DNA of 35,284 nt from assembly GCA_903914615.1 (NCBI GenBank), contig CAIWPS010000831.1, positions 1 through 35,284 on the forward strand. Reading direction: 5' to 3'. The notes under the pieces are model-generated. The model did no database searches. It was not told the origin of the DNA and worked only from the letters and a program-made list of their open reading frames with translations. This document shows, one piece after another, positions 32,894 to 35,284 of the stretch. This stretch comes from an uncultured beta proteobacterium. Lineage in GTDB: Bacteria > Pseudomonadota > Gammaproteobacteria > Burkholderiales > Burkholderiaceae_C. A program made the position numbers and the translations under genes. Each line of letters starts with the position of its first letter. Within the stretch, counting starts at the first letter, position 1.

Positions 32894-33802
32894 TCAAGCG
32901 CCGAAGAAGGCGCGCAGTGCCTCGGCGGTGGGCCCGGGCAGTTCCTCGGGGATGAAATGCCCTGCCGGCAGCGCCTGCCCCTGCACGCGCGCGCTGCACT
33001 GCGCCTGCCACAGCGCCAGCGGGTCGAACAGCGCCTGCACGACGCCACGCGCGCCCCACAGCACGAGCAGCTCGCAGGCGATCTTCTGCCCGGCAGCGCG
33101 CGTGGCGCGGTCGTGGTCCAGGTCGATGCCGGCGCTGGCGCGGTAGTCCTCGCAGGCGGCATGGATGGCCTGCGGCCGGCAGAAGCAGCGCTCGTACTCG
33201 GTCAGCGCCTCGGGCTCGATGTGGGCCAGGCCGCCGCTGCCCCAGCCACCGAGCTTGGCGTGCAGGTAGTCGCTGGCGCAGCCGCCGATCATCTTCTCCG
33301 GCAGGGGGTAGGGCTGGATGAGGTGGAACCAGTGGTAGTACGCCCGTGCAAACCGGAAGTCGGTGGCCGCGTACATGTCCAGCGTCGGCGCGATGTCGAT
33401 CAGCGCCAGCCGGCTCACTGCCGCCGCATGGTCCAGCGCCAGCCGGTGCGCCACGCGCGCGCCGCGGTCGTGGCCGCAGACGGCGTAGCGTTCGTGGCCC
33501 AGTGTGCGCATCAGCAGCGCCAGGTCCTGCGCCATCGCACGCTTGCTGTAGTTGGCGTGGTCGGCTTCGCCCGCGGGCTGGGCGCTGTCGCCGTAGCCGC
33601 GCAGGTCGGGCAGCACGAGCGCGAAGTGCGGCGCCAGTTGCCGGGCCACGCGTTGCCACATCGCGTGCGTCTGCGGGAAGCCGTGCAGCAGCAGCAGCGG
33701 CGGCGCGCCGCGCCGGCCGCCGGTGCGCGCATGGATGCGGGTGCCGTCGAGCTCGAAGGCGCGGGCCTCGAAGCCGTCGAACCAGGGCGCAGCGTCGGTC
33801 AT
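32894..33802 (-). CDS. Haloacetate (fluoroacetate) dehalogenase-like alpha/beta hydrolase
   Basis: A 302-residue hydrolase matching fluoroacetate dehalogenases throughout. Counting from MTDAAPWFDG, the nucleophile Asp112 is in CGHDRGARVAHR with carboxylate-binding Arg113 and Arg116. Asp136 (LALIDIAPT) and His282 (PAGHFIPEE) complete the triad. His157, Trp158 (YYHWFHLIQPYPLPE) and Tyr220 (CEDYRAS) correspond to the halide pocket. All seven or eight residues known for the Rhodopseudomonas enzyme are present at the same spacing, so hydrolysis of fluoro- or chloroacetate to glycolate is a reasonable prediction. An alternative start four codons upstream (MLALM) exists. The next gene on the strand begins 103 bases downstream; the divergent neighbour is metX with its riboswitch. 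Confidence 0.85.
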   Translation of the reverse strand: MTDAAPWFDGFEARAFELDGTRIHARTGGRRGAPPLLLLHGFPQTHAMWQRVARQLAPHFALVLPDLRGYGDSAQPAGEADHANYSKRAMAQDLALLMRTLGHERYAVCGHDRGARVAHRLALDHAAAVSRLALIDIAPTLDMYAATDFRFARAYYHWFHLIQPYPLPEKMIGGCASDYLHAKLGGWGSGGLAHIEPEALTEYERCFCRPQAIHAACEDYRASAGIDLDHDRATRAAGQKIACELLVLWGARGVVQALFDPLALWQAQCSARVQGQALPAGHFIPEELPGPTAEALRAFFGA

Positions 33803-33840
33803 CAGGGCCAGCATAGCGCGGCATCGGCACGCCTGGCGGC

Positions 33841-33850
33841 TGGCTATACT
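33841..33850 (+). promoter_or_regulatory. -10 region of the metX transcript
   Basis: TGGCTATACT contains TATACT (33845-33850), with a TG just upstream. The predicted start near 33857 falls exactly at the first stem of the riboswitch, which supports the call. No strong -35 box is seen. Confidence 0.5.
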
Positions 33851-33857
33851 CCGCGCC

Positions 33858-33914
33858 CTCAGCGCCGATTTGTTCCGACTTGCGGGCGCTTTAACAAATG
33901 CCGCTAAAAGGGGA
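33858..33914 (+). ncRNA. SAM-II (SAM-alpha) riboswitch upstream of metX
   Basis: The sequence follows the SAM-II consensus. The P1 arms AGCGCC (33861-33866) and GGCGCT (33885-33890) enclose GATTTGTTCCGACTTGC, and the 3' part TTAACAAATGCCGCTAAAAG then GGG can form the pseudoknot. The patterns GATTT, CCG, TTGC, AAATG and GCTAAAAGGGG line up one to one with known SAM-II aptamers. Location upstream of metX, the first committed step of methionine synthesis, is the classic context. When S-adenosylmethionine is abundant the RNA should switch expression off. Here an intrinsic terminator lies between aptamer and start codon, favouring transcriptional control. Confidence 0.9.
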
Positions 33915-33922
33915 CACCGACG

Positions 33923-33959
33923 ACCCGGTGCCCGCCTGGCAGGCGGCGCCGGGTTTCTT
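33923..33959 (+). terminator. Intrinsic terminator between the riboswitch and metX
   Basis: Arms ACCCGGTGCCCGCCT and AGGCGGCGCCGGGT pair over 13 to 14 base pairs with one bulged C and a GGC loop, followed by TTTCTT. The stem ends about 10 bases before the metX ATG at 33965. It probably serves as the expression platform of the SAM-II riboswitch. No Shine-Dalgarno sequence separates it from the start. Confidence 0.75.
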
Positions 33960-33964
33960 CGTTG

Positions 33965-35284
33965 ATGGCCTCACTCGGTCTGGTCACTCCGCAGCAGATG
34001 CGCTTCGATGCGCCGCTGCCGCTGAAAAGCGGCGCGGCGCTGGCCGCCTGTGAGCTCACCTACGAGACCTACGGCACGCTGAACGCCGCACGCAGCAACG
34101 CCGTGCTGGTGTGCCATGCGCTCAACGCCAGCCACCACGTGGCCGGCCGCCATGCCGACGGCGCGGTGGGCTGGTGGGACAACCTCGTCGGCCCCGGCAA
34201 GCCGCTGGACACCGACCGTTTCTTCGTCATCGGCGTCAACAACCCGGGCTCCTGCTTCGGGTCGACCGGGCCCATGCACGCCGACCCGGCCACAGGCCGC
34301 ATCTACGGCGCCGATTTCCCCGTGGTGACGGTGGAAGACTGGGTCGACGCGCAGTGCCGCCTGGTCCAGGCACTGGGCATCGAGCAGCTGGCGGCCGTCC
34401 TTGGCGGCAGCCTGGGCGGCATGCAGGCGCTGGACTGGGCACTGCGCCACCCGCAGCGGCTGCGCCACTGCGTCGCGGTGGCCACGGCGCCCAGCCTGTC
34501 GGCGCAGAACATCGCCTTCAACGAAGTGGCGCGGCGCGCCATCGTCACCGACCCCGACTTCCACGGCGGGCATTTCTACGCCCATGGCGTGGTGCCCCGG
34601 CGCGGCCTGCGCGTGGCGCGCATGCTGGGCCACATCACCTACCTCGCCGGCGACGCCATGGACGAGCGCTTCGGCCGCCAGCTCAAGGCCGCGGAGCTGG
34701 CCTACAGCACGCAGCAGATCGAGTTCCAGGTCGAGAGCTACCTGCGCCACCAGGGCGACAAGTTCAGCGAGTACTTCGACGCCAACACCTACCTGCTGAT
34801 CACGCGTGCGCTGGACTACTTCGATCCCGCGCGCGACCACGGCGGCGACCTCGCACGCGCCTTCGCCGCGGCCCGCGAGAACCGCTTCCTGCTCGTGAGC
34901 TTCACCACCGACTGGCGCTTTCCGCCCGCGCGTTCGCGCGAGATCGTCAAGGCGCTGGTGGACAACCGCATCGCCGTCAGCTACGCCGAGATCGACGCCC
35001 CGCACGGCCACGACGCCTTCCTGCTCGAGGACCCGCGCTACCACGGCGTCATGCGGGCGTATTTCGAGCGCATCGCGGCCGAGTCTGAAGGGGCCGAGCG
35101 CCGGGCCGCTCCCAAGCCGGCCCCTGTCCCCTCGGTGGACGAGGGGTCCCAAGGAGCGAGCGCGCCGACCTCGACCTGCTGGCCGACCTCGTGCCGGCGG
35201 GCAGCCGGGTGCTCGACCTCGGCTGCGGCAGCGGCGAGCTGCTGGCCCACCTGCGCGACCGCAAGGGCTGCAGCGGCTACGGCA
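33965..35284 (+). CDS. metX: Homoserine O-acyltransferase MetX, open past its normal end
   Basis: An alpha/beta-hydrolase-fold acyltransferase that activates homoserine for methionine synthesis; metX paired with metW often indicates succinyl transfer. The N-terminus is [20 protein letters not shown]. The segment [14 protein letters not shown] is followed by nucleophile Ser149 in [13 protein letters not shown]. Asp in [10 protein letters not shown] and His near 349 in [13 protein letters not shown] complete the triad. Homologous sequence ends near residue 373 ([11 protein letters not shown]), where the family normally stops. Here no stop follows: the frame runs through a repeat-like segment and on over metW in the wrong frame to the window edge, so the true 3' end is unseen. 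Transcription is governed by the SAM-II riboswitch and terminator upstream. Confidence 0.93.
35086..35160 (+). repeat. Foldable GC-rich element between metX and metW
   Basis: About 75 bases with two nested hairpins: GGGGCCG/CGGCCCC (35090-35096 and 35118-35124) and CCCCTCG/CGAGGGG around GTGGA. A longer-range pair CGCTCC/GGAGCG encloses them. The segment replaces the expected metX end and metW start and looks like the dispersed intergenic repeats known in Burkholderiales; no second copy is visible in this window. Confidence 0.5.
35161..35284 (+). pseudogene. metW: metW, 5' part, no usable start codon (runs off window)
   Basis: The frame reads [20 protein letters not shown] followed by [21 protein letters not shown], the beginning of MetW, a methyltransferase-fold partner of MetX in methionine synthesis, with the SAM-binding motif LDLGCGSGE. 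In this frame an upstream stop (TGA 35086-35088) is followed by no ATG, GTG or TTG before the homologous region. The first such codon is GTG at 35191, which would delete the first helix. AAGGAG at 35151-35156 is a good ribosome-binding site without a start behind it. The gene may be inactivated, start at a non-standard codon, be made by frameshift from metX, or reflect a sequence error. The remainder lies outside the window. Confidence 0.65.

Follow-up and report, generated by a model that had tools for sequence, protein, structure and literature searches.

A probable coupling-preserving repeat between operon genes of Burkholderiales, found at a suspect contig end within metX-metW

The 35,284-nucleotide stretch analysed here (the window, contig C831 positions 1-35284 in an assembly of 866 contigs and 5.88 Mb, with 98% completeness and 2% contamination) ends in a metX-metW junction at which metX seems to have no stop and metW no start. 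An error at the contig end most likely explains this anomaly. The spacer between the two genes belongs to a dispersed repeat, probably an insertion element that preserves the coupling of the genes it separates. The source genome falls in the Burkholderiales, closest to MAGs of the Rubrivivax type. Judged by MetW, the named relatives nearest to it are MAGs of Burkholderiales and Rubrivivax, with 90% for the best match.

Results

The metX-metW junction at the contig end

The original prediction described the raw layout correctly. The metX frame is open from the ATG at 33965 to 35284, and homology to MetX ends near 35083, with NCBIfam MetX models matching through residue 371-373 (35077-35083). 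In the metW frame, the TGA at 35086 is followed by no early start, and the first in-frame ATG, GTG or TTG is a GTG at 35191 within the conserved part. The metX and metW frames differ both in the window and in the overlapping contig C737, leaving no single open frame. As 35284 is the last base of C831, the anomaly sits on the terminal bases of the contig. All differences from C737 are confined to 35109-35208. C737 encodes a complete metW (196 aa) from its base 167, the sole full-length MetW match in the assembly, and its metX stop and metW start share an ATGA in an ordinary overlap. The normal start on C737 contradicts a proposed non-AUG metW start after AAGGAG. Loss of the metX stop and metW start had also been claimed. 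That claim is not supported, because a separate stop and start, named by the prediction itself as contrary evidence, is found on the overlapping contig and in 104 of 106 relatives' junctions. An assembly indel had been among the suggested alternatives; the overlap with C737 shows six substitutions and zero indels.

Table 1. Features at the metX-metW junction, in window coordinates
Feature	Position	Strand	Remark
metX conserved part, 373 codons	33965..35083	+	scores above the NF047916 cut-off (NCBIfam; homoserine O-succinyltransferase MetX)
Contig-end overlap with C737:1-299	34986..35284	.	six substitutions, no indels
TGA in metW frame, not in metX frame	35086..35088	+	immediately 5' of element
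Dispersed intercistronic element copy	35088..35157	+	covariance model R1, 62.5 bits, E 2e-11
Element hairpin 1	35089..35125	+	fold; covariation in family
Hairpin CCCCTCG / CGAGGGG	35128..35146	+	fold; alternative pairing columns counted
metX-stop/metW-start overlap position (NTGA)	35152..35155	+	ATGA in C737; window without NTGA there
metW 5' part, 44 codons up to contig end	35152..35284	+	complete gene on C737

We favour an erroneous or minor sequence in the last ~180 bases of the contig as the source of the missing stop and start. The competing explanation is a real strain variant lacking the stop/start overlap, in which metX would run on and metW would start late or never. Such a variant is unlikely, if still a serious contender. 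A:C/G:T makes up five of the six changes, and transitions are absent. Between close relatives, by contrast, A:C/G:T accounts for 47 of 300 differences and transitions for 58% (P of at least five in six about 5e-4; the spectrum comes from three close-relative pairs, two of them probably the identical pair, and with one of these two left out the count is 29/198). At position 35153, all 96 relatives with metW aligned from residue 1 carry the C737 base and none the window base. None of the 106 relatives' junctions resembles the window, and the stretch is the terminal part of a contig. Other observations fit a strain variant better. At the four other metW differences the window base occurs in 11, 6, 6 and 12 of the 96 relatives, with the C737 base, the commoner of the two, in 28, 84, 22 and 77. 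Two of the six changes share a single codon and yield a conservative exchange. At 35109, the window rather than C737 carries the consensus base of the element family. With the family base at 35109 and both bases present among relatives, the window allele is not plainly made of errors throughout.

Two other contig ends were tested, of which one is divergent. C519 and the opposite end of C831 share exactly 141 bases without a mismatch, which appears to resemble the overlap of assembly-graph neighbours. The far end of C737 meets a divergent C14 (C737:18978-19178 against C14:201-399, 90% identity over 201 bases, divergence rising away from the end). This may reflect strain mixture or a wrong join. 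A real strain mixture may thus exist in the bin, and this second divergent overlap counts in favour of a strain variant at metX-metW as well.

The same junction in relatives

The survey covered 109 loci (29 plus 80 named, from two overlapping source sets with duplicates kept), three of which have no metX. Among the 106 junctions holding both genes, stop and start overlap in 83, the genes lie apart in 21, and two are fused in frame. The fused genes span 702-2561 of L087 (JANYKR010000002.1) and 750-2609 of L090 (JANYJJ010000104.1), from two Burkholderiales/Betaproteobacteria MAGs (GL140 isolates). Both proteins cover all 370 positions of a MetX model (1-370); of the 194 positions of the MetW model, they cover 4-193 and 2-193. 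PF07021 was found in 267 of 300 order genomes. Among the matches listed, eight have an open frame of 515 aa or longer, and none of these eight is fused. A plasmid search with metX returned only 60-80% matches.

These genuine fusions in two of the 106 junctions, together with the metX frame open to the window end, are what could be cited for a programmed -1 shift or read-through fusing MetX and MetW into a single polypeptide, as had been predicted. Given the ordinary overlap on C737, and slip sites (CCCC at 35128 and GGGG at 35143) that do exist but form the two arms of a repeat-made second hairpin, this mechanism is scarcely credible here. A joined MetX-MetW is rejected for this genome, as C737 has separate genes.

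The spacer as a copy of a dispersed element

The spacer had been described as repeat-like, which was borne out: it is one of many copies of an element dispersed across genus and family genomes. The further proposal that the insertion joins MetX and MetW as one protein is replaced by a linkage of the genes through an overlap arrangement. The window copy is shortened, with 22 model positions reduced to one base, and in its fold the CCCCUC and GAGGGG arms are directly opposed. The 3' arm of the second hairpin contains the Shine-Dalgarno (SD)-like GAGGGG, so that pairing of the SD is predicted for the window copy. The hairpins of the predicted foldable spacer exist, but shuffled sequences fold about as well (MFE -39.5 kcal/mol, z -1.18, 27/200 shuffles equally good), so foldability by itself lies within chance. 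At metX-metW there is no in-frame stop before the element, and the MetX of C737 has the element peptide as its tail. Rfam 15 gave nothing at gathering in window 33700-35284, and six hits at E<=5, all under gathering scores, at nine further loci (eight core-pattern copies and one weaker copy).

Junctions of metX and metW were found both with and without the element. R1 matches there at E<=1 in 18 of 23 chosen sources, three of them weakly (E 0.04-0.5), with 62.5 bits in the window, 63.8 in C737 and 89.7 in L075. In the same 23 sources, no R1 match was obtained at metX-metW of L106, L087, L090, L015 and L021. A full-length copy is present at metX-metW of G356 (L204). In Methylibium rhizosphaerae (L094 1395-2006), R1 matches four times between the two genes, at a spacing of 174 bases.

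Distribution and host junctions

At E<=1e-4, R1 has matches in 112 of the 200 genomes of the family and in 89 of the 141 genera. In many of the 112 genomes the matches are weak and number no more than one or a few; lone weak matches of this kind could be chance hits or could come from sister repeats. The best match reaches E<=1e-10 in 51 of the 200 genomes, and ten family genomes have at least 21 matches. A 30-nt core pattern, which omits the 3' end of the element, hits 54 sites spread over 18 of the 60 genus genomes, against none for the reversed control pattern. Leaving out the two own matches (C831, C737) gives the genus set of 52 copies. A plasmid search with one element copy gave no match, and no description of the element was found among open-licence papers.

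Ten junctions were hand-picked from 49, with partner genes assigned by Pfam. They comprise IspD-YgbB (IspF), SdhA-SdhB type, ABC-PhoU, LolB-GHMP kinase, GlyQ-GlyS, MurG-MurC type, PdxJ-AcpS, ABC-ABC2 permease, PntA-PntB type and alpha/beta hydrolase (MetX)-MetW. At sdhA-sdhB, the element occurs in one of 30 fetched loci besides the query. Where the element is absent, sdhA-sdhB loci lack an NTGA overlap, and in the closest pair the difference goes beyond a clean insertion.

Position, frame and structure of the element family

The modelled part of the element measures ~90 nt, rising to ~115 nt with the 5' part. The 5' flanks of L253, L256, L264, L271 and L212 share, by eye, a similar ATGAGACACCCTGTGTC-like stretch. 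The full element may thus be ~115 nt long, with the ATGAGACACCCTGTGTC-like 5' stretch lying between the first NTGA and hairpin 1. In an alignment of 17 spacer-similar copies from outside metX-metW, most end in GAGGGG-5 nt-ATGA, beyond the matched part of the query.

A start codon stands at a fixed place in 48 of the 52 genus copies (a stricter second filter accounts for the difference between counts of 48 and 47 canonical starts). In 44 copies the start is followed by A, forming an NTGA, compared to 6 of 2946 nearby background positions; the exceptions are four copies without a start at this place and four with a start not followed by A. The downstream coding frame agrees with the fixed-place start in 43 of 48 copies and another frame scores best in the other five. 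The upstream gene is co-oriented in 48 of 52, and four copies have an upstream opposite-strand score, one of them weak. The upstream stop lies 6-49 nt before the core in 42 copies and inside the 3' NTGA in six. An exact GAGGGG precedes the start by 5 nt in 37 of 52 copies and by 4 nt in two, while the remaining copies have an altered G-run or lack a start there.

The upstream stop is often itself part of an NTGA (34 of 39 genus copies with a stop before the core under the stricter filter). This 5' NTGA is in frame with the 3' TGA in 28 of the 34 (P 6e-9 against an expectation of 1/3) and out of frame in six. Of the 52 genus copies, 27 have a mini-ORF of 29-44 codons that runs from the 5' NTGA to the start of the downstream gene; in six others the upstream gene reads through the element. 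The family sample consists of 34 core-like copies from 30 loci, one per genome. Of these, 28 have the start and six have no canonical start, where the count of starts is biased because the copies were picked by a model that includes the 3' NTGA. The family copies include 22 with a 5' NTGA and 21 with the mini-ORF, and the 5' NTGA is in frame with the 3' TGA in 21 of 22 (P 1e-9 against 1/3).

Similar peptides can be read from many copies, raising the idea that the mini-ORF encodes a functional small protein that has spread in many copies. In the 3' half, however, minority letters are fewest at third codon positions (71 of 611, compared to 120 and 90 at the others), which makes conservation of the peptide itself unlikely. 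In 12 of the 47 distinct copies in the alignment, one base added between hairpins 1 and 2 puts the first half into another frame. Despite this 1-nt insertion an open ORF often persists, because the 5' start is shifted as well. Two peptides that were tried had no NCBIfam match, and a functional small protein is altogether very improbable.

The RNA structure was assessed in alignment A3, which holds 48 of the 52 copies (47 distinct) and leaves out L191, L194, L200 and L231. In it, 95.1% of cells pair. Changes on both sides occur in 11 of 28 pairs, spread over three of the four helices. Cells with both sides changed number 60, compared to 13.9 in shuffles (0 of 500 as high) and 3-15 in slid structures. 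As shuffled sequences fold about as well, the support for the stems comes from covariation alone. The conserved CCCCUC can pair with GAGGGG in most of the 47 distinct copies, among which this SD pairing shows no covariation; CCCCUC also forms a hairpin of its own.

Discussion

The element is probably a coupling-preserving insertion element. We infer mobility, translation of the mini-ORF and coupling from the measured position, frame, orientation, covariation and distribution. The element sits between co-oriented operon genes, with the NTG of its 3' NTGA serving as start of the downstream gene. At its usual 5' end, the TGA of a second NTGA stops the upstream gene and the NTG opens the mini-ORF, which runs to the 3' TGA. 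Because the mini-ORF spans the element between the two NTGA, a ribosome leaving the first gene could restart, unfold the hairpins and reach the second gene. An insertion at an NTGA would be expected to break coupling, and the ORF between the two overlaps, along with the G-rich SD before the second, might then pass ribosomes onward. In a minority of copies, metX-metW among them, the first gene instead reads through the element, with its own stop overlapping the start of the second gene. The context of the upstream stops, which is ATGA in 18 of 39 genus and 21 of 27 family copies compared to 2 of 29 and 6 of 25 for the stops of downstream genes, suggests movement of the element into NTGA sites. 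On balance, we lean towards a mobile mini-gene spread through the family of these Burkholderiales. Such a mini-gene would insert into operon stop/start overlaps and rebuild the overlap at both ends, so that ribosomes could cross a 29-44-codon linker ORF and three hairpins, with selection acting on the open frame and RNA structure and not on the peptide.

The element might otherwise be a domesticated cis-regulator, such as an SD-sequestering switch or thermosensor, instead of a tolerated insertion element. A regulator would account for the covarying stems, the complementarity of CCCCUC to GAGGGG in most distinct copies, the near-fixed distance to the start codon, and the housekeeping genes that follow at the ten hand-picked junctions. 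However, the presence of the element is patchy at one site, sdhA-sdhB, and the functions of the sampled genes have no obvious signal in common. The separate hairpin of CCCCUC and the lack of covariation in the SD pairing also speak against sequestration. Hence, we consider a regulatory role rather doubtful compared to a coupling-preserving insertion element.

Several known repeats share parts of this layout. Rickettsia palindromic elements are located inside coding sequences and translated in frame. The element recalls them as a palindromic repeat translated in frame inside a gene or at its end, as in the metX tail, but differs in marking the boundary between two genes instead of being intragenic. 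Mycobacterial interspersed repetitive units (MIRUs), reportedly described by Supply et al. in 1997, are likewise short dispersed repeats at start codons with an ORF linked by overlaps, a likeness of layout and description. According to a 2025 review of coupling, MIRUs insert at start codons, bring an ORF of their own that is coupled at -4 nt, and are considered mobile with minimal effect on the expression of the gene (PMC12548453). The element differs in belonging to another phylum, in the covariation measured for three helices, in a G-run conserved ahead of the start, and in a 5' end that usually overlaps the upstream stop too. It could thus be viewed as a MIRU-like arrangement in a different phylum, here with measured RNA covariation. 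As described by Hot et al. (2011), the beta-proteobacterial repeat element (BRE) is similar in being ~90 bp, multi-copy, found in Betaproteobacteria, sometimes in tandem and mobile-like (PMC3110155). BRE has convergent gene pairs at 4 of 13 loci in Table 3 of that paper, whereas, going by these descriptions, the present element is bound to co-oriented genes (48/52) and a start codon (48/52).

Dropping the broken-gene reading removes a false pseudogene or fusion call at metX-metW. The copies also form a large natural set in which one RNA element separates diverse gene pairs and keeps a near-fixed distance from the start codon. Enzyme-subunit pairs of the GlyQ-GlyS, SdhA-SdhB and PntA-PntB type with or without the element make translational coupling directly testable. 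If mobility were shown, MIRU-like insertion at stop/start overlaps would extend beyond mycobacteria, and odd C-terminal tails on conserved enzymes would be accounted for. The metX-metW spacers of L011, L012, L027, L063, L132 and G000:C690 (L179) contain differently sequenced repeats that match R1 more weakly or not at all. Their layout consists of a C-rich hairpin, a second hairpin, a G-run and a start, and they are possibly sister families.
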